IMG/VR virus record: IMGVR_UViG_3300023210_000094
Coordinates: 1-37,997 of that record
Reading direction: 5' to 3' (one strand)
DNA: 37,997 nt
Source of the DNA: a virus
Positions 3,753 through 37,936 of this stretch are shown here, piece by piece (position 1 is the stretch's first letter; the number at the start of each line of letters is the position of its first letter). A program made the position numbers and the translations under genes. The notes beneath the pieces were generated by a model, which made no database searches, was not told the DNA's origin, and saw nothing but the letters and a program-made list of their open reading frames with translations.

Positions 3753-3760
3753 TATTTATT
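3753..3760 (-). promoter_or_regulatory. Late promoter core upstream of tail sheath
   Basis: Read on the minus strand this is AATAAATA, one base from the T4 late -10 element TATAAATA. It ends 19 nt before the sheath start codon, a spacing close to that of the copies upstream of the tail tube, the 79-residue protein and the prohead protease. T4 late promoters need only this -10 box plus phage sigma and clamp factors. Confidence 0.55.
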
Positions 3761-4302: not shown

Positions 4303-5745
4303 ATGATTATAGGAGTAGAAGTGCAAGAAAATATTTTAATGATTTCTTATTATGATGCAGAAGGAAAAATTGCATACATACGAAAGAGACTTGCTGAACA
4401 TGAGATCTTTAATTGGGTCGAGCATAATAAACCGTCACAATATAAAAACTGGGATGGTACCAATATTAAGCAGGAATTATCAGATCCAAAGTGGCTGACT
4501 CGAATCCGACTCGAAGAGTTGATTCTAGAAAAGCTAACACCTGAGGAAAAGGGATTACTGTATAATTTTGACAACTTTCCTAAAAAGGACTATATAGATA
4601 TTGAGATTTTGTTAACAAGCGATGAATTTCCTGCTCCGGAAAAAGCTGAAATGCCCGTCGGAATGATTTCATTTTGTAATGAAGATGGAGTAAGTTACGT
4701 ATTATCTATCATGAAATCAGAAGAGCATCCAAATGGATTATCTAAAGAAGAAATAGTTAAAATGGAAAAAGAAGTAAATAAGTACTTCAAGGAAACAGTT
4801 CCTCACGATCCAAAGGATAAAAAGATATTAATGCAAGATTTCAAAATCAAGCATATGTTCTTTGAAACTGAAAAGGAATTAATGGAGTTTTACTTTCATA
4901 AAGTTGCTCCACATCAATCATTTTTAACCGGATGGAACGTAATTGATTTCGATTGGCAATATCTAATGAATAGAGGATCTAAGATCGGACTAGATACTCT
5001 AGATAAGATGACTTCTAGGAAAACCTTTTCTAAAAGACATAAGCTACCTACCCATCTCGGAATAGTTGATTACATGCAATTGTTTATTGATCCAGGATAT
5101 AAGCCATATAAAGTAGTTGAGAATCATACTCTTGATTACATTTCAAATAAAGCATTGAATACATCAAAACTCAATCATCCTTACAAATCATTTAGGGAAT
5201 TTCAAAAAGATGTTTATATGTTTACAATGTATAATGTAATTGATAATATTCTCGTTAAGCTTCTTGAAGATAAGTTTGGACTAATGGACGTAGCTTTTTC
5301 AGTAGCAAACGTAGCAGAGATAGAAGTAAACAAAATATTTAGTCCGGTTCACATCACCGAGGTTTTAATGTGTAGAGAATTTCTAGGCAAAAATCAGAAA
5401 ATGCTTAAGAAGGGATGGAAAGGAAAATCAGAGGAAGAAGATGCAACTTATGAAGGAGCATATGTAATGCCCCCAGTTCCTGGATATTATAAATATATTA
5501 GTTGCTACGATTTTAAATCAATGTACCCTAATATTCAAATGCAATTCAACTGTTCTCCTGATACTTATCTTGGAAAGATGGGAATGATCAAGACTAATGG
5601 AACTGAGATTACAACCAAGAATAATACACTATTTGATAGTCAAAAGGATTCAGTTGCACGTGTAATATTAGAAAGATTATATAATGCTAGAATCGAAGCT
5701 CAGGAAGAAATTAAAGATCTTAAATTTGATAGAAAGAAAACATGA
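4303..5745 (+). CDS. 43A: DNA polymerase gp43, N-terminal half (split gene)
   Basis: This is the first half of a T4-type family B replicative DNA polymerase. Exonuclease motifs are present: Exo I DIE (D99, E101), Exo II NVIDFD (N212-D217) and Exo III YNVID (Y310-D314). The N-terminal palm follows, with YEGAYV at about 383-388 and motif A DFKSMYPN (D403). The protein then ends at residue 480, in the finger region at a point near T4 residue 480. Motif B (KxxxNSxYG) and motif C (DTDS) are absent, so this chain cannot polymerise alone. T4 gp43 has 898 residues. The stop codon overlaps the next start (ATGA), and the next gene is unrelated, so this looks like a settled gene split rather than a read error. 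I found no C-terminal half in the window. Confidence 0.9.
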   Translation: MIIGVEVQENILMISYYDAEGKIAYIRKRLAEHEIFNWVEHNKPSQYKNWDGTNIKQELSDPKWLTRIRLEELILEKLTPEEKGLLYNFDNFPKKDYIDIEILLTSDEFPAPEKAEMPVGMISFCNEDGVSYVLSIMKSEEHPNGLSKEEIVKMEKEVNKYFKETVPHDPKDKKILMQDFKIKHMFFETEKELMEFYFHKVAPHQSFLTGWNVIDFDWQYLMNRGSKIGLDTLDKMTSRKTFSKRHKLPTHLGIVDYMQLFIDPGYKPYKVVENHTLDYISNKALNTSKLNHPYKSFREFQKDVYMFTMYNVIDNILVKLLEDKFGLMDVAFSVANVAEIEVNKIFSPVHITEVLMCREFLGKNQKMLKKGWKGKSEEEDATYEGAYVMPPVPGYYKYISCYDFKSMYPNIQMQFNCSPDTYLGKMGMIKTNGTEITTKNNTLFDSQKDSVARVILERLYNARIEAQEEIKDLKFDRKKT

Positions 5746-13760: not shown

Positions 13761-14639
13761 ATGAAAGTATTCAAAGGAGAAACATTCGCAGAAGTATATA
13801 AAGACAGTCTAATTGACTTGTATAATAATGCCCAATATGAAACTCGACCTAGGGATCTTGCTGTTAAGGAAAACTTAAAGGTTGCACTTGAATTTTCAGA
13901 TCCTATATCTTCAATTTATAATAATGATAGAAGATCGTCTCAGTATAAATATATAGCCGCTGAATTGCTTTGGTATTTCTTAGGTAGAGATGATGTTGAA
14001 TTCATTAGTAAATACGCAGGATTCTGGAAAGCAATCCAAAATGAAGACGGATCTATTAATTCATCATATGGAAACCTGCTGTTTAACAAGAAAAATAGAT
14101 ATGGAACCACTCAATATGAATGGGCATTAAAATCGCTATTAAAAGACAAAGACACTAGACAGGCAGTAATACACTTCAACCTACCTGAGCATCAGCATTT
14201 CGATAGCAAAGATTTTGTCTGCACAATGTATGGGATATTTCACATTAGAGATAATAAGTTATTATTAAATATTAACATGAGAAGTAATGACGCAATCCTG
14301 GGAACACCTACTGATATCGCCTTCTTTACTTTATTACAACAACAAATGTTAAATCATTTAAAGTATGAATATCCTAACTTGACACTAGGATCATATACAC
14401 ACGTTACTGATTCCTATCACATATATGAAAGACATTTTGATTTAGTAAAAGATATGATTGATCTTCCATTCATCCCCGTTAGCTTTCCACATATAGGGAT
14501 TAATCTAATATCTGAAAACGGTAAACCTTCAAGTGATTTACGGTTACTTGAGTCACATTACGATTCAAACAATGAAGTAGTTACAGATGATGTTTATAAT
14601 TGGATACAAAATAATATAAGAGATGAAGTTATCATATAG
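13761..14639 (+). CDS. 42: dCMP hydroxymethylase-like protein (thymidylate synthase fold)
   Basis: A TS-fold enzyme expected to transfer a one-carbon unit from methylene-tetrahydrofolate to C5 of a pyrimidine nucleotide. The nucleophile is C154 in VCTMYGIFHI (TS: PCHxxxQF). The phosphate/base-binding block is RSNDAILGTPTDIAFF (R174-F189). In thymidylate synthase the residue after the PF of GLPFNI is Asn, which selects dUMP. Here the matching residue is D185. In T4 gp42 the same position is Asp179 and selects dCMP, so dCMP hydroxymethylase or dCMP methylase is the best reading. The protein has 292 residues (T4 gp42 246). A canonical thymidylate synthase is encoded separately at 25573-26634. 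Hydroxymethyl versus methyl transfer cannot be decided from sequence here. Confidence 0.72.
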   Translation: MKVFKGETFAEVYKDSLIDLYNNAQYETRPRDLAVKENLKVALEFSDPISSIYNNDRRSSQYKYIAAELLWYFLGRDDVEFISKYAGFWKAIQNEDGSINSSYGNLLFNKKNRYGTTQYEWALKSLLKDKDTRQAVIHFNLPEHQHFDSKDFVCTMYGIFHIRDNKLLLNINMRSNDAILGTPTDIAFFTLLQQQMLNHLKYEYPNLTLGSYTHVTDSYHIYERHFDLVKDMIDLPFIPVSFPHIGINLISENGKPSSDLRLLESHYDSNNEVVTDDVYNWIQNNIRDEVII

Positions 14640-25572: not shown

Positions 25573-26634
25573 ATGCAAGCAACTTTTGAATACCACAAAC
25601 TATTAGATCACATTTGGAAATATGGTAAGAAAAAAACAGACCGAACAGGAACCGGCACAACGTCAATATTTGACTACAAGATTAAATTTGATATGGAACA
25701 AGGGTTTCCGCTTATCACTACTAAACGATTACACACTAAGTCAATTATCCATGAATTACTATGGTTCCTCAAAGGCTCTACAAACATCAAATATTTGAAT
25801 GATAACGGAGTCACAATATGGGATGAGTGGGCTGATGAGAATGGTGACTTAGGTCCTGTTTATGGAAACCAGTGGGTAGCTTGGGATAAAGTCAAATTGT
25901 TTGAACCAGATAATGAAGGGTTTAGGTATACTGAAACTAACCAAATAAATCAAATCCAAAATGCTATTGACACATTAAACAACAATCCCGATTCACGTAG
26001 AATTATGGTATCAGCTTGGAACGTGGGAGAGATTGATAAAATGGCTTTACCACCTTGTCATTGGGCATTTGAATTATATACTGAGGAATTGTCTGTTGAA
26101 GAGAGACAGACAATATTAGAAGAAACAAATCCTATGTATTATATGGACCAACAATTTGGTGGAGACGATATATTTACACGACAAAATATCCCAAACAGAA
26201 GATTATATCTTAAATGGCATCAACGTTCAGTAGATGCATTTTTAGGACTTCCATTCAATATAGCAAGTTACGCACTATTACTTCATATGTTTGCACAACA
26301 AACAAACATGGTACCAGGTACACTGGTAGGTGATTTAACAAATGTACATATTTACGACAATCATATGGAATTTGTTAAGAAACAGTTAGCACGAGACCCA
26401 TCTAAACATGTTGCACCAACTCTAATGTTGAACGACGAATTGACGATAGAAGATAGAATAATTCTTGCTAAAAAGTCCGACAAGTTTGAATTGCTTGATT
26501 GCATATCAAGCAATACCTGCGATACTAAAGGTATTTCAAAAACAAATGATATATTCAATTACAAGTTTAGCGACGTTATAATAGAGAACTATGAATATTT
26601 CCCTAATTGGAAAAACATACCTATTGCCGTGTAA
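25573..26634 (+). CDS. td: Thymidylate synthase (ThyA-type)
   Basis: Makes dTMP from dUMP with methylene-tetrahydrofolate. The protein has 353 residues (ThyA about 264). Motifs in order: DRTGTGTTSIF (23-33), the folate/substrate loop; LPPCHWAFELY with nucleophile C162; RSVDAFLGLPFNIASY with base-selecting N229; and HIYDNHMEFV. An extra stretch of about 40 residues (about 170-208) lies between PCHWAFE and LYLKWHQRS, where ThyA has only a short turn. N229 keeps dUMP selection, unlike D185 in the TS-fold protein at 13761-14639. Confidence 0.93.
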   Translation: MQATFEYHKLLDHIWKYGKKKTDRTGTGTTSIFDYKIKFDMEQGFPLITTKRLHTKSIIHELLWFLKGSTNIKYLNDNGVTIWDEWADENGDLGPVYGNQWVAWDKVKLFEPDNEGFRYTETNQINQIQNAIDTLNNNPDSRRIMVSAWNVGEIDKMALPPCHWAFELYTEELSVEERQTILEETNPMYYMDQQFGGDDIFTRQNIPNRRLYLKWHQRSVDAFLGLPFNIASYALLLHMFAQQTNMVPGTLVGDLTNVHIYDNHMEFVKKQLARDPSKHVAPTLMLNDELTIEDRIILAKKSDKFELLDCISSNTCDTKGISKTNDIFNYKFSDVIIENYEYFPNWKNIPIAV

Positions 26635-27319: not shown

Positions 27320-28033
27320 TTAAAGTGACATCACCTTATCAACTATTTCTTGAACATGTTTATTTGCTAATACTTTATAGTCAATAGAAAAGTTATCTCC
27401 CTTTATAGATGTAGAGTCTTCACAGAATGATCCTTTGTATGCAATTCCAGCAGGAACTGTTTTTCCTGTTCCAGGATCCTTATATTCTTCTTGTTGGAAT
27501 GGAAATAATTTCCTATTTGTAATAGAGTTTTGTATGAAAATTGGCATCCTAATTACCGTCCCATATACAGTGTTAACTATTCCTTTAATAATATTTTCTA
27601 CTGCAACGCTAGGATCCCCTCCGATTAATTTTTTAGCAGATTTAATCGCTATCCCAATAGATCCCTTTGTAATCCAGCTTAATCCATCAATGTCGCTAAT
27701 TAAGAGTTTCTTTAAGGATATTATAAAATTCTCAGATCCTTTTCTAAATGATTTTCCACCATCACATTCTATATATGATTTAATTAATAAATCAAGCTGA
27801 GGTGTAATTGCCTCAATTGCTTGTCCCTTTAACTTATCTATATTAATAAATGTTGATGCTATTGTTCCTTGAGGGCCACTTCCTACTTTTACACGAGCAT
27901 TTAAATATTTCCTAAGACCTTCAATTACATCAGATTTAATATCCGACTTGGCCCTATTAATCTTATTAATTTGATCTGATGAGGCTGCTTCATTCATCAT
28001 ATACCAGGTTGTAAAGTTATTAATATAATTCAT
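27320..28033 (-). CDS. Late protein of unknown function downstream of the capsid gene
   Basis: A 237-residue protein that I do not recognise. The N-terminus (MNYINNFTTWYMMNEAASS) resembles prohead-targeting peptides in pattern. The rest is a mostly helical, basic sequence. Around residues 165-215 a segment with PFQQEEYKDPGTGKTVPAG looks like a loop. GTGKT here lacks the strand and helix of a real Walker A. It has its own late promoter-like box (28041-28048) and lies beyond a terminator that ends the capsid transcript, so it is a separate late unit. Confidence 0.6.
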   Translation of the reverse strand: MNYINNFTTWYMMNEAASSDQINKINRAKSDIKSDVIEGLRKYLNARVKVGSGPQGTIASTFINIDKLKGQAIEAITPQLDLLIKSYIECDGGKSFRKGSENFIISLKKLLISDIDGLSWITKGSIGIAIKSAKKLIGGDPSVAVENIIKGIVNTVYGTVIRMPIFIQNSITNRKLFPFQQEEYKDPGTGKTVPAGIAYKGSFCEDSTSIKGDNFSIDYKVLANKHVQEIVDKVMSL

Positions 28034-28123: not shown

Positions 28124-29830
28124 TTAAAGAGTGTTAGTTGGTGCCGCTCCACCAGTTAAAGTAGCTAAGTCACCTTGAACCGTCATATTTACATATTGCG
28201 TTTCTGGGTGCCATCCTGCTTCAGTGATAGCGTAACGAGATTTCATCCCGATCTTTGGTGAGAAAGTACCTTCAGCTATTGTCTGTAAAGACTCAGCCAT
28301 GATGTAAGGCATGAATTTAACTCCAGGCTCTTCATCAGCACCTTTTCTTCCGATACAAATACGAGGATCTCCCCAAGAAAGGTTAGGATCTACATACACT
28401 TGAACTCCGTAAACTTTACCCGCTGGGTATAAGTTTCCAGCTACTCCGCCCATGTCCGTAGGAACTTGTGCGATTGAATAACCAGATACATCAGCTAACG
28501 CAGATGCTACTCGTCCGTTAGTTACCAAGAATGTACCAGCTCCAAATCTACCTCTGTGATAAATTAAGTTTGCTAATTCAAGAATCTTAGTTACTAATCT
28601 TCTTTGTAATGTAGAAACATTTTCAAATCCACCTGTTCCAGCTAGCAAATCAAGTCTAGTAAGGTTAGAACCTTCTACTAGGTCAATCTCAGTTGTATGA
28701 GTTGCTGCTAGTTGGAATACTCTATCCACTAATCTTTTATTGATTGACTGTGCAAGGTCATTTACTGCTACATTCTCTAACATAGAGATAACGTCGTAGT
28801 TCCAAACTCTGTTAAGATCTTGGATTTGCTCTACAGATGCAGAGATTGCTACTTGGTCAGTATCAGCTTCAATGAATTTAGTAAACATTCTAAGACCCAT
28901 TTGTCTGAATCTTGAACCTTCACCTGCTTCTCTTGACATAGATCCTGGTGTAGATCCTGTTGCTGGCATATAGGGCCCTTGAAAATCAGTTGATGCGTAA
29001 TCGTCATCAGATGTTCCAGTGAAACCGGAAATTTGATTCTCTAACGCAGATACTAATTGTACATCAGCTGTTGCGATATTACCAGTAGTTCCTCCTGCTG
29101 GAGCAACTGTACCGATAGTTGCAATTCCTTTACCGTTAATATCAGCTGCTACCGAAGTAGTACCTGTTGGATCTTCTACTACCTTGATGATAGCGTGACC
29201 GTCTATTCTTGAATAACCAATAAAGTGGTATACTCCAGATGCTGCTGCACTAAAGACGATAATTTCACCAGAAACTGGATTTGCAGTAGCAATGTTAGCT
29301 ACACCTGATCCTAAAAGATCATCTGTAGTAATTCCTACTAGTTTTACCATATATGGAGAAAACTCATCGTCTGTTTTACCACCAGTGTAAAGATAATCTA
29401 AGTAAGGTAAAAACCCTACTGGAGAATCCATAGGTACAACTGGAACTAGGTCGAAACCTATTGTCTTAGCTGCAACTTGTATTGCTACTGGTAAAAGAGA
29501 TGGGAATTTATCACCAGAACCTGACTGATTTGCTGCGGTTCCTGTGCCACCATATCCATTTTTTACTCCACCAGCTGTAAACGGCGTTTGAGCCGGAGTT
29601 GGTGCTTGTGCGGCTCCCATTCCTGGTAAAGCTCCTGGAGTCTGTAGGAATTGACCTGGTGCATTTTGCTCAAAGATCGCGTCAGTATTGTCAAATATTG
29701 CGTGATTGTGAGCGTATTCTGCTAACCAAGGTGTTTTTTCCATATCAGCTCCGTGAGATTCCAAAATTGGTTTCCACGTGTTGTTCATCGATTGATCGTT
29801 TGAACGTCTGAAAATTTTAGTACGTGCCAT
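28124..29830 (-). CDS. 23: Major capsid protein (gp23-like)
   Basis: The main shell protein of the head. The protein has 568 residues (T4 gp23 521). The N-terminal 60-70 residues (with PILESHGAD and WLAEYAHNHAIFD) are likely the pre-sequence removed by the prohead protease. The HK97-type fold follows, with a Gly/Ala/Thr-rich insert (about 140-300), then SREAGEGSRFRQMGLRMF, a long helical spine region (about 320-420) and the conserved GRKGADEEPGVKFMPYIMAES and AEGTFSPKIGMKSRYAI blocks near the C-terminus. T4 gp23 needs GroEL and the gp31 co-chaperonin; a GroES-like gene at 2-265 fits this need. It follows the protease-scaffold gene by 18 nt, as gene 23 follows 21-22 in T4. Confidence 0.92.
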   Translation of the reverse strand: MARTKIFRRSNDQSMNNTWKPILESHGADMEKTPWLAEYAHNHAIFDNTDAIFEQNAPGQFLQTPGALPGMGAAQAPTPAQTPFTAGGVKNGYGGTGTAANQSGSGDKFPSLLPVAIQVAAKTIGFDLVPVVPMDSPVGFLPYLDYLYTGGKTDDEFSPYMVKLVGITTDDLLGSGVANIATANPVSGEIIVFSAAASGVYHFIGYSRIDGHAIIKVVEDPTGTTSVAADINGKGIATIGTVAPAGGTTGNIATADVQLVSALENQISGFTGTSDDDYASTDFQGPYMPATGSTPGSMSREAGEGSRFRQMGLRMFTKFIEADTDQVAISASVEQIQDLNRVWNYDVISMLENVAVNDLAQSINKRLVDRVFQLAATHTTEIDLVEGSNLTRLDLLAGTGGFENVSTLQRRLVTKILELANLIYHRGRFGAGTFLVTNGRVASALADVSGYSIAQVPTDMGGVAGNLYPAGKVYGVQVYVDPNLSWGDPRICIGRKGADEEPGVKFMPYIMAESLQTIAEGTFSPKIGMKSRYAITEAGWHPETQYVNMTVQGDLATLTGGAAPTNTL

Positions 29831-29840
29831 TATTTATAAT

Positions 29841-29849
29841 GATTATTTT
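29841..29849 (-). promoter_or_regulatory. AAAATAATC leader element
   Basis: An exact minus-strand copy, 10 nt before the capsid start. TATAAATA (29831-29838) follows it directly before the ATG, too close to the start to act as a promoter of this gene. Confidence 0.5.
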
Positions 29850-31093
29850 TAGTTGTTAGCTTGTCTCGAAAGATTTGCTAAGTAATTTGAGGAATATCCT
29901 CTGCTATTCTCAACCACCGTTTTAACGGCTATCATACCTTCTGTACCTTGGCTTTCGTTAAGTTTTTGCATTTTTATGTTTTGTGTTTCTATTTCAACTC
30001 TTTCATTAACTCCTCTTAGGATGTTCGATTGTTCGTCCCAAAAAGATTTAACTTGATAAGCTGTCTTTAGGTTATATAACTGAGATTTTGCGAATATTTT
30101 ACCTTTTTCATTTTCATTCATCTTATTCCATACTGGTTTGTATGTATCAGGCATGAATTTTACGATTAAAGGAATATCCTTAGTTGATTCATTTACAACA
30201 GCGTCCATAATTCCAAGTACATCATTTTCTGAGAACCAAACTGATGCTCCAAGAGCCTCAACAATTGCTTGTTTTTGTTCAGTAGGTAATTCATAAAACG
30301 CTGTTCTTTTATCTTCAGCTATAACTTTTAAGAATGGGTGTCTGTTTTCTAACACTGATTTTGCAGATTCAGAGTTAACTGATGCGATAACTGCATCTAC
30401 ACTAGATACTAATTTATCTACATTTGCTGATTCTGTTAAAGATACAACTCCATCTAATAGATTTCTCTGTTTAGGTGCAGCAGTTCCTTCATTTAATGAT
30501 TCTGCTAAATACTCTGTATAACCAATTCCTTGGCTAGCTTTTCCTGCTACATACTGAGAATACTCTCTGTTTTCGTTAATTCCTTTTCCAAGGTATTCAG
30601 CGAATTGTAAAGTGTTATTTGCTCCTTCAGCAATGTGTTCTGAGTATTGAATTGATCCATCTAATTCTTCAGCTAAATAGTTTTGATAGTTAATAGAACC
30701 GTTTAAGCTCTCTTTCAAATACTCAGCGTAGTTAATTGATTGATTTAATTTCTCTGCAATATAGTCATTATGGCCAATTGTTGTGTTTAGTTTTTCTCCA
30801 ACGTAACTAGTATACTCGATAGCATTGTTTGTAGTTGATGCTACATGCTCCGTATAAGATACGTTTTTATTTACCATTTCTGAAAGATAATCTGAATAAT
30901 TAATTACTCCTTCTAAATGTTCAGCTAAATAATTTACAAACGAAACAACTTTACTGAGGTCTTGTCCTCCTTCAGTAGATTCATTAAGTTTTAAATTCTT
31001 CATTTCGCTTTTTAATGAATCGAAATTTTCTTTAACTACCTCAGTGTATCTATTCATACTCTCCTTAGTTACAAAATCTTTGTTGTCGGCCAT
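29849..31093 (-). CDS. 22: Possible nested scaffold protein from internal start
   Basis: An in-frame ATG at M247 of the protease gene is preceded by an AT-rich stretch (AAATAATAATAATACA) like the leaders of the other late genes. Translation from it would give a 414-residue scaffold with the eleven repeats but without protease. Phage lambda makes its scaffold (Nu3) from an internal start in the protease gene C in this way. Direct evidence is lacking. Confidence 0.45.
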   Translation of the reverse strand: MADNKDFVTKESMNRYTEVVKENFDSLKSEMKNLKLNESTEGGQDLSKVVSFVNYLAEHLEGVINYSDYLSEMVNKNVSYTEHVASTTNNAIEYTSYVGEKLNTTIGHNDYIAEKLNQSINYAEYLKESLNGSINYQNYLAEELDGSIQYSEHIAEGANNTLQFAEYLGKGINENREYSQYVAGKASQGIGYTEYLAESLNEGTAAPKQRNLLDGVVSLTESANVDKLVSSVDAVIASVNSESAKSVLENRHPFLKVIAEDKRTAFYELPTEQKQAIVEALGASVWFSENDVLGIMDAVVNESTKDIPLIVKFMPDTYKPVWNKMNENEKGKIFAKSQLYNLKTAYQVKSFWDEQSNILRGVNERVEIETQNIKMQKLNESQGTEGMIAVKTVVENSRGYSSNYLANLSRQANN

Positions 31094-31831
31094 TGTATTA
31101 TTATTATTTTCTGGTGTTATAAAATCTTCAAATACGGATTCTATAGGATTATTTATTTTATATATTTTAAAATTATCACTATAATTTAAACTTTCTGAAA
31201 CATCGTTTAAATGTTCCTTGTTTACGAATGAATCTGCTTTTAAATGATCAAAGCTTTCCGTTAACATTTGGAAGTTATCTTTTAATGATTCATTAAGTGT
31301 TTTCTTTAAAATAGCAGCAGTAAATCCAGGCTCTCCAACTAAATCATAAGTGAATATCTTGTGAAGTTTAACTCTACCTTCATTCATTACTTGACCAGCT
31401 GCTCTAGATGAAATTGAAAGATTAACTCCTCCGTCTAATAAAGCCTTAGCTATTTTTCCGTTTGGAGTGTTTTCTAAAATTCTTAGTTTAATCATTACCT
31501 GATTTCCACCGTCAAAATTTAATGCTTCAATAATATGTGATGCACTTTTTAATGTAACGTCGAAATGTGGTGGGTGATCTAAATCTCCAACTAGTTGACC
31601 TTTACTGATTTTATCGTTAAGGTAACTTAAGTGAGGTAAGTATTCTGTTTTTCCATATACTCTACCGTTATTGTTCTCTTCTTCAAACACTGCGCATACT
31701 CCTTCTAGGACCATATTACCATGTGTTGAACTCTCGTTTATACGTAAATCCTGTCCAATATTTTCAACCAATAGAACGTAATCGTCTAAGTTTGCTGATT
31801 GTAAAGAATTATTGCTTTGATTAGTTTTCAA
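29849..31831 (-). CDS. 21: Prohead protease fused to scaffold-like protein (gp21-gp22)
   Basis: The first 180 residues match the T4 prohead protease gp21: DLDHPP with catalytic H86 (T4 H85), SISSRA with catalytic S141 or S142 (T4 S140), and LVGEPGFTAAIL after it. The remaining 480 residues look like a head scaffold: eleven 14-residue repeats at 298-451 (pattern YxxYLAExLNxxIx), then an acidic helical end. T4 makes the scaffold as separate gp22 (269 residues). An internal ATG at 31093 (M247, in MADNKDFVTKES) could start a free 414-residue scaffold. The start codon of the whole gene is a TTG at 31831, with no in-frame ATG before M40. It lies 18 nt downstream of an exact TATAAATA late box. Protease domain confidence is high. 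The fused scaffold role is inference from position and repeats. Confidence 0.85.
   Translation of the reverse strand: MKTNQSNNSLQSANLDDYVLLVENIGQDLRINESSTHGNMVLEGVCAVFEEENNNGRVYGKTEYLPHLSYLNDKISKGQLVGDLDHPPHFDVTLKSASHIIEALNFDGGNQVMIKLRILENTPNGKIAKALLDGGVNLSISSRAAGQVMNEGRVKLHKIFTYDLVGEPGFTAAILKKTLNESLKDNFQMLTESFDHLKADSFVNKEHLNDVSESLNYSDNFKIYKINNPIESVFEDFITPENNNNTMADNKDFVTKESMNRYTEVVKENFDSLKSEMKNLKLNESTEGGQDLSKVVSFVNYLAEHLEGVINYSDYLSEMVNKNVSYTEHVASTTNNAIEYTSYVGEKLNTTIGHNDYIAEKLNQSINYAEYLKESLNGSINYQNYLAEELDGSIQYSEHIAEGANNTLQFAEYLGKGINENREYSQYVAGKASQGIGYTEYLAESLNEGTAAPKQRNLLDGVVSLTESANVDKLVSSVDAVIASVNSESAKSVLENRHPFLKVIAEDKRTAFYELPTEQKQAIVEALGASVWFSENDVLGIMDAVVNESTKDIPLIVKFMPDTYKPVWNKMNENEKGKIFAKSQLYNLKTAYQVKSFWDEQSNILRGVNERVEIETQNIKMQKLNESQGTEGMIAVKTVVENSRGYSSNYLANLSRQANN
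30479..30940 (-). repeat. Eleven tandem 42-bp units (14-residue repeats)
   Basis: Residues 298-451 of the protease-scaffold protein divide into eleven units of exactly 14 residues with the pattern Y-x-x-Y-[LVI]-A-E-x-L-N-x-x-I-x. Two heptads per unit suggest a continuous helical rod. DNA copies have diverged. Confidence 0.8.
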
Positions 31832-31849
31832 AAGTCTGCAATTTTTTAT

Positions 31850-31857
31850 TATTTATA
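31850..31857 (-). promoter_or_regulatory. Late promoter core upstream of the prohead protease
   Basis: TATAAATA on the minus strand, identical to the T4 late consensus, 18 nt before the TTG start of the protease-scaffold gene. Confidence 0.65.
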
Positions 31858-31891
31858 ACAGACTTATATGAAAAAACTGAAGTTTTTGCCT

Positions 31892-32869
31892 CTATTCTTG
31901 GATAAAGGACTCTTTGATAATTTCTAAATTATCTTCGTTGACTTCTGATAAGTCAGGTGGGATGATATTAAATCGTATAATATAATTACCGAGTATGCCT
32001 GCGCTAGACATGATACCTTGGTCCTTTATATTGAATTTTAAATCATTTAGCTTCTTAGGTGTAGATATCTCAGCATCATATGATTTATCTAATAATGTTG
32101 TGATACTTATTTTATCACCTTCGAATAATGTTTTATACAGAGGAATGTCTATAAATTGAATAACATTTTCATCCTCAAGTTCCATATCTTCTGGAACATT
32201 TATTTTTAAAGTTAAGTAATAATCTCCAACTAATAATACCGTTTCCGGATCTCCCCATATATTAGCACGCTGGAATATATCTTCATGACCTAGTTTTTCT
32301 AGTTTCATCTTTATAAAATATACACTTCCTACTTTAAGAATTGTCGTATGTTTCTTTCTTAGATCTAAATGAATATTTAGAGTCTTAGATAATTTATCCT
32401 TTTTAAAGCTACCATCAACCGTCCATCTATCGTAATTAACCTTAACTGATGTTCCTTGCATTAAATCCCTTAAGTCTACTTCTCTGTCTTCCTTTATATT
32501 AAGATGATCAGTAGTTGGCATTCTCGTTCCTCTTTCGCTATTGAATCCTCCTCGACGAGATGAATGTCTTCCTGTATTATTGAATCCTCCTTTAAATTCT
32601 TCTTTGCTAAAGTTATTTACCCAATCTTCAAATGATGTGCCATGTCTACCTCCATTAGATATAGGGTTCCTTGATAGATCATAGTCTTCTTTCTTTTTAG
32701 GATCTCCTAATACTCCATATGCTTCTGATATACTTTTAAACACATCTTCTGCTCCACTACTTGAATTAACATCGGGATGATATTGCTTTGACATAGCTCG
32801 ATATGCCCGTTTAATTTCCGCAGAAGTTGAAGTATTCTTTACTTCTAATATTTTGTAATAATCTTTCAA
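31892..32869 (-). CDS. DnaJ-like J-domain co-chaperone
   Basis: A 325-residue protein with a complete J domain at residues 1-65 (DYYKILEV, HPD at 31-33, FKSISEAYGVLGD, then YD). It is followed by a Gly/Arg-rich linker (about 70-115) and a C-terminal substrate-binding region resembling the beta-sandwich part of type II DnaJ/CbpA, without the zinc-finger cysteines. The HPD motif is needed to stimulate Hsp70, so it probably recruits host DnaK to fold phage proteins. The start is a TTG at 32869, since the J domain begins at the next codon and no ATG lies before residue 26. It is in the head gene cluster, upstream of the protease. Confidence 0.85.
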   Translation of the reverse strand: MKDYYKILEVKNTSTSAEIKRAYRAMSKQYHPDVNSSSGAEDVFKSISEAYGVLGDPKKKEDYDLSRNPISNGGRHGTSFEDWVNNFSKEEFKGGFNNTGRHSSRRGGFNSERGTRMPTTDHLNIKEDREVDLRDLMQGTSVKVNYDRWTVDGSFKKDKLSKTLNIHLDLRKKHTTILKVGSVYFIKMKLEKLGHEDIFQRANIWGDPETVLLVGDYYLTLKINVPEDMELEDENVIQFIDIPLYKTLFEGDKISITTLLDKSYDAEISTPKKLNDLKFNIKDQGIMSSAGILGNYIIRFNIIPPDLSEVNEDNLEIIKESFIQE

Positions 32870-32940: not shown

Positions 32941-33807
32941 ATGAGAATTAAAGTTTGCCAATTCAAGGCAAGTCCAATCGCAATGGCACCGGACGTGTTA
33001 TCTGACTGTATCAATAAGTATTCAACTGACTTTGTATCTCACGTATGCGGACCTCGTTCAATTAATCCTACGCCACAAGAAGGAACTGCATTATTACATT
33101 GTCATAACAAAATACCTGGAAATATTAGAGTTGCAAATAGGATAATACAATACCACAGTGAGCCATTTCAGGTTGATTTAAAGTCTCCAGTCAAAACGAG
33201 ATTGGTGATCGCTCAGTATCATGCGACACTTCCTGAATACAGAACATGTAAGCTAGTAAGAAACATTATAGACTTTAACGATCCTGTATATAATTATAAT
33301 AGGGTTGATAATAAAATTAGAATAGGATATTCTCCAAGTCGAACTACAAAGATGGGACAATGGCACGATAAGGGATACGAACCAACTATTAGAATATTAA
33401 ATTCGATTAAAGAAAAGTATCCAACTCTTGTTGACGTAGATGTAATACGTAAAGTTGGATTAAATGAATGTATTGAACGTAAATCTAAGTGCAACATTAT
33501 TATTGATGAATGTGTAACTTCAAGTTATCATAGATCAGGATTAGAAGGATTAGCTCTTGGTAAATTAACAATATGCTCATTGGATCCTGCAATTGAGAAC
33601 GTTATAGTGAAAGCAACTAAGACTCCAACTCACCCGTTTGTTAATGTGTGGATTAGAGATCTACAATCTAAACTTGAAGAATTAATAGATGGTGGAATCG
33701 ATCCTATTTTAGAAAACGGAAGAAACTCTAGACAATGGATGGAATCATATTGGAAACCGCAGGATATAATTAAAGAATTCGAAAATATTTACAAGAAATC
33801 AACATGA
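32941..33807 (+). CDS. Glycosyltransferase-like protein (GT-B type)
   Basis: A 288-residue protein that looks like a GT-B glycosyltransferase of the GT4 kind. It has a strand-helix repeated fold and, in the C-terminal half, DECVTSSYHRSGLEGLALGKLTI, a pattern like the donor-sugar ExxGxxxxEAxxxGxP motif of GT4 enzymes (here SGLEGLALGK). Similar proteins appear in phage and marine bacterial surface-sugar clusters. The first gene of a plus-strand operon, it lies 71 nt from the divergent DnaJ-like gene. It ends 4 nt into the next gene (ATGA). The substrate cannot be told from the sequence. Confidence 0.6.
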   Translation: MRIKVCQFKASPIAMAPDVLSDCINKYSTDFVSHVCGPRSINPTPQEGTALLHCHNKIPGNIRVANRIIQYHSEPFQVDLKSPVKTRLVIAQYHATLPEYRTCKLVRNIIDFNDPVYNYNRVDNKIRIGYSPSRTTKMGQWHDKGYEPTIRILNSIKEKYPTLVDVDVIRKVGLNECIERKSKCNIIIDECVTSSYHRSGLEGLALGKLTICSLDPAIENVIVKATKTPTHPFVNVWIRDLQSKLEELIDGGIDPILENGRNSRQWMESYWKPQDIIKEFENIYKKST

Positions 33808-34436
33808 ATATCATAAACACCGTGTTTGACAAAATATATTGCATTAATCTAGATTCTAGAACAGATAGATGGGAAAGATCTTATAACTTATTCAAACAAT
33901 TAGGAATAAATGTAACTCGATATTCGGCAAATCCAGGAACTGGATATAGTCATAATAAATTCATAAATAAAGGTGAACATGGATGCTTATTAAGCCACAT
34001 GGAAGTGATGCAAGAAGCGGAATCTAACAATCTAGGCAATATCCTTATTTTAGAAGACGATATTGAATTTGTAAGAGGATTCACGGGTAAATTTGAAGAA
34101 TTATGGGACAATACGCCGACGGATTGGGATTTATTATACCTAGGAGCAAATAATCAAGGAACACTTAACGAAAAAGCTCCAAATATTTATAGAGCAGATA
34201 AACTACTCACAACTAGTAGTTATGCCGTGAATTCTACCACTCGTAAGTTGCTAATCAGTGAAATTAGACGTATGGATGTTCCTGTTGATAATATATTTAC
34301 ACGAGTTCAAGCTAGAGTTAACTGCTACTTATATAAACCATACATTACTTACCAAAGAGAAGGATTCAGTGATATCCGAGGAGGATTTCGTAACTACGAT
34401 AGAGTTCTTAGAAAATACAGCACCGATCATGAATAA
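33804..34436 (+). CDS. GT25-family glycosyltransferase
   Basis: A 210-residue protein with the GT25 (LPS biosynthesis) pattern: INLDSRTDRWERS (14-26), an opening strand with Asp/Arg; GCLLSHMEVMQEA (59-71); and ILILEDDIEF (79-88), whose EDD contributes the metal-binding triad. Later, VDNIF and a Tyr/Gly-rich end fit the rest of the domain. GT25 enzymes add galactose or similar sugars to LPS cores. It overlaps both neighbours. Confidence 0.82.
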   Translation: MNIINTVFDKIYCINLDSRTDRWERSYNLFKQLGINVTRYSANPGTGYSHNKFINKGEHGCLLSHMEVMQEAESNNLGNILILEDDIEFVRGFTGKFEELWDNTPTDWDLLYLGANNQGTLNEKAPNIYRADKLLTTSSYAVNSTTRKLLISEIRRMDVPVDNIFTRVQARVNCYLYKPYITYQREGFSDIRGGFRNYDRVLRKYSTDHE

Positions 34437-35040
34437 AAAATTAGTAGACTTCCATAACATACACGAAGGAGCGAAGATTGTCGTATGTGGGTGCGGAATG
34501 TCGCTCTTGGATTTTGAACCTCATCATAAAGATTTCATAACCATTGGGGTAAATGATGTGCCTCAATTATTTTCACCTACCTATAATTTAGTGACAGATC
34601 ATCCTAATAGATTCAATTCACATCGACAAAAGATAGTTAATGAAGGTGATTATAAACACCTATTCACATGTGTAGGAGGATGGAGGCATCCAAATATAAT
34701 TAACTTTGATTTAGGAGCAAAGGGAGCACCTAACTTAGCGGATCCTACTAAAGTTGATCACTTTCTAAATTCACCATACACTGGGATTAATATCGCATAT
34801 AAATTAGGAGCAAGGCAAATTGCAATAGTAGGAGTAGATTTTACAGATGGACATTTCTATTCAAAGAAAGATGGACCCCATTCCCTTTCAAGAATGAACT
34901 ACATAACTGATTTAGAATGGGGATATGATCACATTAAAAATGAGCTTAAAAAATTAGGAGCAGATTTATATAACTTAAGTTCAAGTAGTAAAATAGAATC
35001 TCTTCCAAAGATAAGTGTAGAAGAATTTAAAGCATTATGA
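34429..35040 (+). CDS. DUF115/GT42-like Rossmann protein
   Basis: A 203-residue protein with a Rossmann start, AKIVVCGCGMSLLDFE, then NDVPQLF and DHPNRFN, and a later IAIVGVDFTDGHFY. This order is like DUF115 and bacterial sialyltransferases (CstI/II, GT42: VCGNGPSL and a later strand-D motif). The next gene resembles CMP-sialic acid synthetase, which supports a role as a sialyltransferase-like enzyme. The family match is moderate. The long open frame reaches upstream to 34258, but I chose the ATG at 34429, which overlaps the preceding stop by 8 nt, because the conserved domain begins there. Confidence 0.5.
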   Translation: MNKKLVDFHNIHEGAKIVVCGCGMSLLDFEPHHKDFITIGVNDVPQLFSPTYNLVTDHPNRFNSHRQKIVNEGDYKHLFTCVGGWRHPNIINFDLGAKGAPNLADPTKVDHFLNSPYTGINIAYKLGARQIAIVGVDFTDGHFYSKKDGPHSLSRMNYITDLEWGYDHIKNELKKLGADLYNLSSSSKIESLPKISVEEFKAL

Positions 35041-35666
35041 AAATAATAATACCAGCAAGGGAAGGCTCCAAGGGACTCCCACATAAAAACCGTAAGCTAT
35101 TTAAGCATACCGCAGATATCATACCTGATGAGCTCAAAGGGGATGTGTATGTATATACAGACGATGCTGACATTCAAATAATGGCAGTTCAACGTAAATT
35201 TAATGTAATTAATAGATCGTTAGAATACGCTTCAGATTTTATATCAACTAAAGATTCACTCATCGATTGTATGGGAGATATTAATACCGAAGATGATGAG
35301 GTTATTATAATGCTATACTTAACATATCCTGAACGAACATGGGAGGAAGTTATGGACGCATATGAATTATATTCAATGACTAATGCGCCGTCACTATTAT
35401 GTAAGAAAGAAATAGATGTTTCTCCATTCCTAATATTAAAAAGAGAAGGATCCTTCGGCGGATCACAGTTATTTTACCATGATTTATATAGACGTCAAGA
35501 TTATCCTGACTGTTTTGAAATAAGTCATTATATTACAATGTTTAGAAAGGAAACGTTACATGGACTCAATAATAATATGTATAACATAGATACTATCTAC
35601 ATTGACATAGATAAAAATACAATTGATGTTGATACTAAAAAAGACCTAGATAAATTAAATGAGTAA
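35037..35666 (+). CDS. CMP-sialic acid synthetase-like nucleotidyltransferase
   Basis: A 209-residue protein with IIPAREGSKGLPHKNRKLF at its N-terminus, the signature of NeuA/KdsB-type cytidylyltransferases, which join CTP to an acidic sugar. TDDADI (around 41-46) is the next conserved strand. The length is close to NeuA (about 220). It probably activates a nonulosonic acid or a related sugar. The neighbours are glycosyltransferases, and the gene overlaps both. Confidence 0.72.
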   Translation: MKIIIPAREGSKGLPHKNRKLFKHTADIIPDELKGDVYVYTDDADIQIMAVQRKFNVINRSLEYASDFISTKDSLIDCMGDINTEDDEVIIMLYLTYPERTWEEVMDAYELYSMTNAPSLLCKKEIDVSPFLILKREGSFGGSQLFYHDLYRRQDYPDCFEISHYITMFRKETLHGLNNNMYNIDTIYIDIDKNTIDVDTKKDLDKLNE

Positions 35667-36456
35667 CTTTATTACAGTAAAAGACATTGGCCACTTTGGT
35701 AGATTGGGAAACCAGCTATTTCAGATTGCAGCCGCATTAGGATATTCTAAAATGTATGATATCCCAGCTAAATTCCCAAGATGGATTTGCAACTATGACA
35801 AACTGGATTTCGCACATTATTTTAAGAATAAATTAGATGAGACTCTTGTACCGTCTCAGATTTCTCATGTATTTAATGAGCCTGACTTCTCACATGCTAC
35901 AATCCCTAAGTTTGGAGTTGCAACTAATTTACATGGATATTTTCAATCTGATAAGTATTGGGAACATTGTGAAGATACTATAAGACATTATTTTGAACCT
36001 GCTGATTTTTTAGTGAATAATATTAATGAAAAGTATTCTAAAGAACTAAGTGGAAATCCATGTTCTATTCACATTAGACGTGGAGATTATGTTGGCAATG
36101 AATTTCATGATGTTTGTGATATTAATTATTACAACAAAGGTATTAAGATGATGAAAGAAAATGGAATTACTAAATTCTTAATATTTTCAGATGATATTGC
36201 ATGGTGTAAAACTCAATTTACAGGAGATAATGGATATAATTTTATCTTCATGGAAGGAAACGATGTTATCACTGATTTTATTGCAATGACTATGTGTAAG
36301 AATAATATTATTTGCAATAGTAGTTATTCATGGTGGGCAAGTTATTTAAATAATAATCCATCTAAAATAGTATATGCTCCATCTAAATGGTTCAGCGACA
36401 CTGCTAGTATTAAAAACTACGAAACCATTTACAGAAAGGACATTATAAAAATATAA
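35659..36456 (+). CDS. GT11 alpha-1,2-fucosyltransferase-like protein
   Basis: A 265-residue protein with the GT11 signatures: GRLGNQLFQIAAALGYS (14-30), HIRRGDYV, which binds GDP-fucose, and NSSYSWWASYLN in the C-terminal part. The family adds fucose in alpha-1,2 linkage to galactose or related residues of surface glycans. No GDP-fucose synthesis genes are visible in the window, so the donor would come from the host or elsewhere in the genome. It overlaps the upstream gene by 8 nt. Confidence 0.85.
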   Translation: MSNFITVKDIGHFGRLGNQLFQIAAALGYSKMYDIPAKFPRWICNYDKLDFAHYFKNKLDETLVPSQISHVFNEPDFSHATIPKFGVATNLHGYFQSDKYWEHCEDTIRHYFEPADFLVNNINEKYSKELSGNPCSIHIRRGDYVGNEFHDVCDINYYNKGIKMMKENGITKFLIFSDDIAWCKTQFTGDNGYNFIFMEGNDVITDFIAMTMCKNNIICNSSYSWWASYLNNNPSKIVYAPSKWFSDTASIKNYETIYRKDIIKI

Positions 36457-36463
36457 AGATACG

Positions 36464-37936
36464 ATGGAAAGATTAAACCTTAGAAATACAACATTCATTA
36501 TCCCACTTTACCTTGAAAGTGAGGATAGAAAACTAAATCTCCATATAACACTCGCTTACCTATCTAAGCATCTTGATACTAATATTATCATACTTGAACA
36601 TGATACAGTATCTAAAGTTCCTCAGATACTTGAGAACTTAAATTTAGACACTAACATTAAGTATGTATTCTCAGAGAATAAAGCTGGGAATGATATATTT
36701 CATAGAACTAGATTCCTAAATGAAATGTTAGATTTAGTAGAAACACAAGTCGTTGTTAACTACGACGTTGATATTTTATTAAGACCTGACGTATATTTCG
36801 AATGTCAAGAAAAAATATTAGATGGATCTGATTTAATATACCCATATTTCTGGGGAGATTCTCAATATCAAATCCATAGTCCAGGTCGACATACTATACA
36901 TACAACTAATGATATAGATTTAATTGCACCTCAACATATGGCAATTACTAGAAGTGAATATGGGCACTGTCAATTCTTTAGCACTAAATCATATCGTGAA
37001 GGTGGAATGGAAAATGAGAATTTTATCTCATATGGACCTGAAGATAAAGAGCGTGGATATCGATTTCAAAAGTTAGGATATAAAGTTGAATGGCTAAATA
37101 ATATGGTTTATCATATTGAACATAGTAGAGGAGTTAATAGTTCTAGTGCGAATCCTCATATGGCAAACAATAATAATTTCCTTAGTCAAGTTCAATCATA
37201 TACAGAAGGCGAACTTAGACATTATTATGATAACATTGGATATTTAAGTAAGTATTCAAATCAACACGTTGTACCTGAACTTATATCAGAACCTATTCCT
37301 GAGCCTTATGTTGAAGATGAAAAGAATATTGCTAATAAAATATTTCATGAAGAAGTACAGAGATGGTTTGAAGATGATGGAGATTTAACTCATAGATTAA
37401 GCTATGATCTTACTGATAATTCTAAGATTATTGATGTTGGTGGATACAGAGGAGAATGGGCAGCTGCTATGTTTGCTAATCATATGTGTAATATTGAAGT
37501 ATTTGAACCAGTCTCAGAATACTGGCAATTTATTCATAATAGATTCCTAAAGAATACTAAAATTATTGCACATAAATCCGGACTTAGCCATAAGACTGAG
37601 ACAATTGATATTGTAAAGAAATCCCAAGAATCATCTATGTTCATAGAAGCAGGTGATGATGTATTAGAAGCAATTTACATGTTGGATATAAACGATCATC
37701 TTGCTAATTGTGGAATAGTTGATCTGATTAAGATTAATATTGAAGGTTCTGAATATGATATATTTGAAAATATATCTGATGATAGTCTTAATAAACTAAA
37801 GAATATTCAAATACAATTTCATTCATTTGTAGACAATTGTATTACTAGACGAGACGCTATTAGAGAAAGATTAGCGATCACACATGATTGTACTTATTGT
37901 TACGATTTTGTTTGGGAAAATTGGAGACTTAAATAA
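36464..37936 (+). CDS. Glycosyltransferase-FkbM methyltransferase fusion
   Basis: A 490-residue two-domain protein. The first part (about 1-270) is a GT-A type glycosyltransferase: an opening TTFIIPLYLES strand, YDVDILLRPD with a DxD-type metal site, and MENENFISYGPEDKERGYRF, which is the galactosyltransferase-like ED motif. A Pro-rich linker (about 272-288) leads to an FkbM-type SAM methyltransferase (about 320-480): IIDVGGYRGEWAA (SAM loop), EVFEPVSEY and KINIEGSEYDIF. It could attach a sugar and O-methylate a sugar in the same step, a useful cap for a glycan chain. The next gene overlaps its stop by 1 nt (TAATG). Confidence 0.75.
   Translation: MERLNLRNTTFIIPLYLESEDRKLNLHITLAYLSKHLDTNIIILEHDTVSKVPQILENLNLDTNIKYVFSENKAGNDIFHRTRFLNEMLDLVETQVVVNYDVDILLRPDVYFECQEKILDGSDLIYPYFWGDSQYQIHSPGRHTIHTTNDIDLIAPQHMAITRSEYGHCQFFSTKSYREGGMENENFISYGPEDKERGYRFQKLGYKVEWLNNMVYHIEHSRGVNSSSANPHMANNNNFLSQVQSYTEGELRHYYDNIGYLSKYSNQHVVPELISEPIPEPYVEDEKNIANKIFHEEVQRWFEDDGDLTHRLSYDLTDNSKIIDVGGYRGEWAAAMFANHMCNIEVFEPVSEYWQFIHNRFLKNTKIIAHKSGLSHKTETIDIVKKSQESSMFIEAGDDVLEAIYMLDINDHLANCGIVDLIKINIEGSEYDIFENISDDSLNKLKNIQIQFHSFVDNCITRRDAIRERLAITHDCTYCYDFVWENWRLK

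Follow-up and report, generated by a model that had tools for sequence, protein, structure and literature searches.

The DNA analyzed here, referred to as the window, is a fragment comprising positions 1-37,997 of the 37,997-base virus record IMGVR_UViG_3300023210_000094. On its minus strand, at 29849..31831, lies a reading frame of 660 codons with a TTG start that joins a prohead protease domain of the S77/gp21 type to a repeat-bearing, scaffold-like half, in agreement with an earlier note on this DNA in which protease and scaffold had been read as one gene. The neighbor upstream of this fused ORF is a DnaJ-like gene (31892..32869, minus strand), a possible source of readthrough transcripts, and adjoining it downstream is the gene for a gp23-type major capsid protein (28124..29830, minus strand). 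Nested within the fused ORF is a putative scaffold reading frame of 414 amino acids (29849..31093, minus strand), which shares the phase and the 3' end of the protease gene.

Directly after the capsid gene is a gene for a 237-aa protein (27320-28033), with GATAAATAAC located 15 nt upstream of it; a family search with this protein gave no significant match and we consider it a candidate head protein. Beside the head genes, at 33804-37936, is a cluster of genes for a glycosyltransferase 25, a cytidylyltransferase-like protein, a glycosyltransferase 11 and an FkbM methyltransferase, whose putative role is sugar decoration. Two genes of the thymidylate synthase family (13761-14639 and 25573-26634) were also identified, one with a strong match (E 3e-95) and one diverged (E 1e-21), the latter of which may encode a nucleotide hydroxymethylase. 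At 4303-5745 there is a 480-aa fragment of a DNA polymerase B that has the exonuclease and just the first part of the polymerase domain, and because the fragment stops there, the polymerase of this virus may be split.

The Protease Half

The N-terminal part of the fused protein is a prohead protease of the S77/gp21 type, based on profile, structure-sequence comparison and predicted fold. The domain spans residues 41-177 (31301..31711, minus strand). In profile searches residues 33-177 matched Pfam Peptidase_S77 (E 1.3e-10) and PHROG 207, head maturation protease (E 1e-36), and the top Foldseek match of the predicted protease fold was T4 gp21 (5JBL, E 4.4e-8), with herpesvirus capsid proteases as the next matches (E about 2e-3). 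The earlier note had placed H86 and S141/S142 in this gp21-like domain, and these residues hold up among relatives, all of which have D85-H86-P87 and S141-S142-R143. Alignment to the sequence of the T4 gp21 structure 5JBL, a chain in which Ala replaces the His and the first Ser of SSR, identifies H86 and S141 as the catalytic pair. Directly after the domain is a motif that marks a predicted self-cleavage site, L179-N-E181/S182 (31286..31297, minus strand), which aligns with ITE/S of T4 gp21; 87 of 94 relatives have [LIVM]xE directly after the protease domain.

The Scaffold-Like Half

The C-terminal half (414 residues) is largely helical by structure prediction. It contains ten to eleven copies of a 14-residue repeat, [IL]-x-Y-x-x-Y-[LIV]-[AG]-E, at residues 296-449 (30485..30946, minus strand), which are predicted to form a long helix, and a C-terminal helical domain at residues 500-620 (29972..30334, minus strand; pLDDT about 80). 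Most repeat copies have a gp21-type [LI]xE motif, and in the window's protein this half contains 14 such motifs versus 5.5 in shuffles. There was no detectable homology between the scaffold half and T4 gp22 (hhalign probability 0.3%), and a PHROG search with it gave weak matches alone, to families mostly without a stated function. The T4 gp21/gp22 frame of the earlier note thus stands as regards gene position and helical architecture but not as regards a sequence relation to gp22, and the term "gp22-like" can be used for position and architecture only. It is the position, the repeats and the helical prediction that lead us to describe this half as scaffold-like.

A separate gp22 gene elsewhere in the genome would speak against scaffold and protease being one gene, as the earlier note recognized. 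When 14 long records (four of 462-735 kb) were searched with the scaffold half, no second full-length homologue was identified, and the sole extras sharing the repeat were two short ORFs. These are separate genes of huge phages, encoding 210 aa in L098 (LR756501, locus 752-1384) and 87 aa in L099 (LR745206, minus strand), and carry two to four copies of the YxEYIAE 14-residue repeat; their products may act as tags that target the core, docking cargo into the scaffold.

The 3' end of the scaffold ORF (29900-29985, KLNESQGTEG) is under strong synonymous constraint. One group of relatives (L045-L057) has TATAAATAAT at this end, about 140 nt upstream of the capsid gene, which suggests that the promoter of the capsid gene is embedded in the scaffold gene in that group.

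Distribution of the Fused Gene

A scan of IMG/VR revealed at least 572 candidate loci that encode relatives, and those that were readable have a single frame of about 640-810 residues. Among the carriers are uncultured huge phages of 460-735 kb, in which the gene order is portal-fusion-capsid and the portal is of the gp20 type (Pfam Portal_T4, E <= 1e-64). Genes 21 and 22 are separate in T4, P-SSM2 and Acj61. Phage PAU was rejected as a split homologue, as it has one gene for the protease (gp151) and another for the scaffold (gp152) and the sequence of gp152 is without the M..VT...YS motif of the fused family. In Prevotella phage Lak-A1 (L006) the protease is fused to a long second half that is acidic, of low complexity and without repeats and is, by its sequence, a different type of scaffold on the same protease. 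In the literature searched, which mostly lacked subscription journals, no previous description of a fused protease-scaffold gene in T4-like phages was found.

The Internal Start

The nested frame opens at an in-frame ATG (31091..31093, minus strand; M247) that is preceded by GAAAATAATAATAATACA. The earlier note had proposed ATG 31093, with its AT-rich leader, as a possible start and conservation in relatives as a check; none of 240 relatives lacks it. The junction Met was identified in 240/240 fetched fused relatives (229 by pattern, 11 read by eye), a set that leaves out Lak-A1, which is fused but has a second half that is not alignable. These relatives are diverse, in that 94 of them are less than 80% identical to one another, with identity to the window as low as 28% in the most distant one. 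In a set of relatives at <90% identity the Met was kept in 46/46 (including Lak-A1, whose aligned junction Met is ambiguous) and was the sole invariant Met of the protein. M247 is located in a linker (residues 236-254, pLDDT <50) that is predicted to be disordered and connects two folded parts, and the linker columns next to the Met vary in both length and sequence. Since the linker is so variable and predicted to be disordered, a structural reason for the invariant Met is unlikely, and chance or artefact as the origin of the internal ATG was rejected because the Met is conserved in all 240 relatives.

The leader of the internal start (31094..31113, minus strand) is rich in A and poor in G. 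Across relatives its positions -20 to -1 are 61% A and 6% G, whereas other in-frame ATGs are preceded by 38% A and 17% G (p 7e-24, which, as with all such p-values here, is overstated because related sequences are not independent). The leaders of the capsid-gene starts in the same phages are 67% A and 2% G, and have in common with the internal-start leader an A-tract at about -17 to -14. Around the internal start, the predicted RNA structure was weaker than the gene average in 45/46 relatives. In addition, the internal start is always ATG in relatives, whereas the full-length starts are often TTG or GTG in the window's clades. Judged from these comparisons of sequence, the internal ATG is very likely used as a start.

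A Promoter-Like Element within the Coding Sequence

At 54 nt before the internal ATG, within the coding sequence (K-I-N-N), is a promoter-like element, AATAAATAAT (31148..31157, minus strand). Synonymous constraint was determined with each sequence pair normalized by its own codon identity; a pair-specific expectation was needed because variable regions leave only close pairs, which biases an un-normalized test. The strongest constraint was at three places: the internal element, the leader with the ATG, and the ORF's 3' end ahead of the capsid gene. Of these, the peaks at the internal element and at the leader and ATG recurred in three clades taken separately. The internal element reads ATAAATAAT in loci with TATAAATAAT as the promoter upstream of the full-length gene, and GATATATA in those with GATATATA upstream. 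The internal interval has [TAG]ATAAATAA or GATATAT[AG] in 52 of 90 loci, versus 0.005 per interval elsewhere in the ORF, and the type of internal motif matches the upstream type in 35 of the 38 loci that could be assigned. Neither promoter motif occurs at either place in 23/90 loci. Promoter types follow clades, and for this reason the switch between them may represent one or two events.

Each of the two forms of the element constrains its own Ile codons within one peptide stretch, and codon bias shifts with the form. In the ATAAATAA group 23/24 Ile residues after Y[KR] are encoded by ATA, and in the GATATATA group ATA encodes 16/23 Ile residues before Y, against a background of 18-19%. Where the internal element lies, the protein reads KIYKI, a stretch that is predicted to form a beta-strand (residues 221-226) and keeps its Tyr in 44/46 relatives; part of the conservation of the element is therefore at the protein level. 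On balance, the internal element is somewhat more likely than not to be a working late promoter.

In the window itself, [TAG]ATAAATA is present at 3760, 17432, 28048, 29838 and 31857 (minus strand), 30 nt or less upstream of five minus-strand gene starts, which is fitting for a late promoter; over the whole window there was no enrichment of the motif, with 19 seen versus 27.5 expected. Conservation in relatives was not found for TATAAATAAT at the start of the capsid gene (29829-29838).

The Start of the Full-Length Gene

A predicted hairpin abuts the TTG start of the full-length gene (31832..31865, minus strand), with AAGTCTGT (31858-31865) and GCAGACTT (31832-31839) as its arms and a T4-late-type promoter element, TATAAATAAT (31848..31857, minus strand), that is conserved in relatives in its loop. 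The arms co-vary, which applies to the window's clade only (the window and relatives L009-L037, L066 and L082): they differ among relatives yet still pair, as AAGTCTG/CAGACTT, AAGAGTCCT/AGGACTCTT, AAAGCCTA/TAGGCTTT or CGTCT/AGACG. The pairing score of arms with their own partners was 13.7, compared to 10.65 (sd 0.43, maximum 12.1) in 300 partner permutations. In the same clade the full-length gene opens mostly with TTG, non-ATG starts being common in the window's clades. It is unlikely that the hairpin is a terminator, because the promoter lies in its loop, which measures about 18 nt, and because a start codon, not a U-tract, comes after the stem.

The start regions of the T4 genes e, soc, 49 and I-TevI are hidden by an RNA helix; gene e transcripts that begin at late promoters do not include its 5' portion, and these are translated (PMC3014915). 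By the logic of gene e, the hairpin described here would silence readthrough from the DnaJ-like gene. Whether hairpin and TTG start together keep synthesis of the full-length protein low and late is, in our view, evenly poised.

A Model for Protease and Scaffold Dosage

We consider it very likely, given the conservation of start and leader, that this one frame has two 3'-coterminal products, a little protease-scaffold and much free scaffold. The long product (660 aa) would be the prohead protease, brought into the core by its scaffold tail, and the short product (414 aa, from ATG 31093) would be free scaffold in excess. The T4 core contains about 580 copies of gp22 and 55 of gp21 (PMC9958956), a ratio that is beyond the reach of a plain fusion. 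In the prohead the protease probably releases itself at LNE181/S182 and would then degrade the scaffold at the repeated [LI]xE sites; the predicted cleavage motifs fit the pattern in T4, in which the protease self-releases and the core is digested (PMC9958956). As to how dosage is set, we lean slightly toward a transcriptional solution, in which this clade of big and huge T4-type phages would have a gene within a gene resembling herpesvirus UL26/UL26.5, with a late promoter and leader of its own for the scaffold and, in the window's clade, a protease start that is held back further by the TTG codon and by the hairpin with the late promoter in its loop.

A rather doubtful alternative to the transcriptional part of this model is that nesting is by translation only, with the internal ATG used on the full-length mRNA and the promoter-like element being no other than a conserved protein strand in AT-rich DNA. 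Such an arrangement is consistent with the predicted strand at KIYKI and its Tyr (44/46), with the 23/90 loci that have no recognised motif at either place, and with the internal starts inside one protease gene that are known in lambda and in Mu-like phages (PMC8508860, PMC4378225). It does not sit well with the bias at different Ile codons in each promoter group, each fitting the local motif, or with the peak that synonymous constraint reaches at the element in each of the three clades.

Two further readings concern the short product itself, and we regard both as very improbable. If only the full-length protein were made, free scaffold would come from self-cleavage after the protease domain, for which there is the gp21-type [LIVM]xE in 87/94 relatives that aligns with ITE/S of T4 gp21, and the invariant Met would be a fossil start or a structural residue. 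However, protease and scaffold would then be made in equal amounts, the leader and the codon constraint would have no role, and a Met that was only a fossil would not persist through 240 sequences, down to 28% identity, in a linker that is disordered and variable. Scarcely more credible is that the internal start is used for some other core protein, with an unrelated main scaffold gene elsewhere. The dissimilarity of the scaffold half to gp22, the extra short repeat-bearing ORFs in huge-phage records and the fragmentary nature of the window are all compatible with this, but the scaffold half holds the place of gp22 between gp21 and gp23 (portal-fusion-capsid in the huge phages), is largely helical and has the repeated [LI]xE sites that are expected of a degraded core. 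Under the favored model of two products from one frame, a second gene should be called at the invariant Met in annotation of these genomes. The T4-type lineage with the fused gene includes phages above 600 kb, for whose capsids the scaffold has hardly been described.

Comparison with Known Systems

The earlier note had likened the gene to lambda C/Nu3, in which the scaffold gene is likewise in-frame and 3'-coterminal inside a capsid protease gene. That analogy is apt for the nested, in-phase scaffold frame, but the closer parallel is herpesvirus UL26/UL26.5, because of the embedded promoter-like element and the weak TTG/GTG start with its e/soc-type hairpin. Lambda C is an S49-type protease, a family different from gp21/S77, whereas the fused family has a gp21/S77-type protease, a gp23-type capsid, an A-rich leader that is not of the Shine-Dalgarno type, and a promoter-like element of its own. 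UL26/UL26.5 consists of a protease-scaffold frame and a nested scaffold gene with its own promoter, with cleavage between the two halves. The fused family resembles it in the nested scaffold frame, the predicted cut between the halves, the match of the protease fold (about 2e-3) and probably, through the promoter-like element, in a separate promoter for the scaffold, and differs in being of phages, with T4-type late promoters and a gp21-type cleavage motif.

Mu I/Z and the Mu-like phage PaMx73 also have an in-frame internal scaffold start within a protease gene; in PaMx73 this start is a Val codon behind a Shine-Dalgarno sequence (PMC4378225), whereas in the fused family it is always ATG with an A-rich leader, and in T4-type phages. 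In phage P2, gpO combines protease and scaffold in one protein, as here, and the portions of the source consulted describe no nested scaffold product (PMC7552001). The protease of T4 itself is homologous and shares the catalytic residues, and the gene order (20-21-22-23) is also alike, but gp21 and gp22 are encoded by separate genes, and gp21' is a protease shortened at its N terminus and not a scaffold. The hairpins of T4 e, soc and 49 are similar in the placing of the late promoter, which leaves the 5' arm out of late transcripts; here, the gene with the hairpin encodes a capsid protease-scaffold and starts at TTG, and the repression is putative. A scaffold nested in a protease gene is thus of a known kind, and what the comparisons support as new is its pairing with a T4-type protease and capsid, an A-rich leader, a likely late promoter of its own and a weak start that appears to be guarded by a hairpin. 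The nested solution to protease and scaffold dosage of lambda-, Mu- and herpes-type viruses would in this way extend to the T4-type (gp20/gp21/gp23) lineage.
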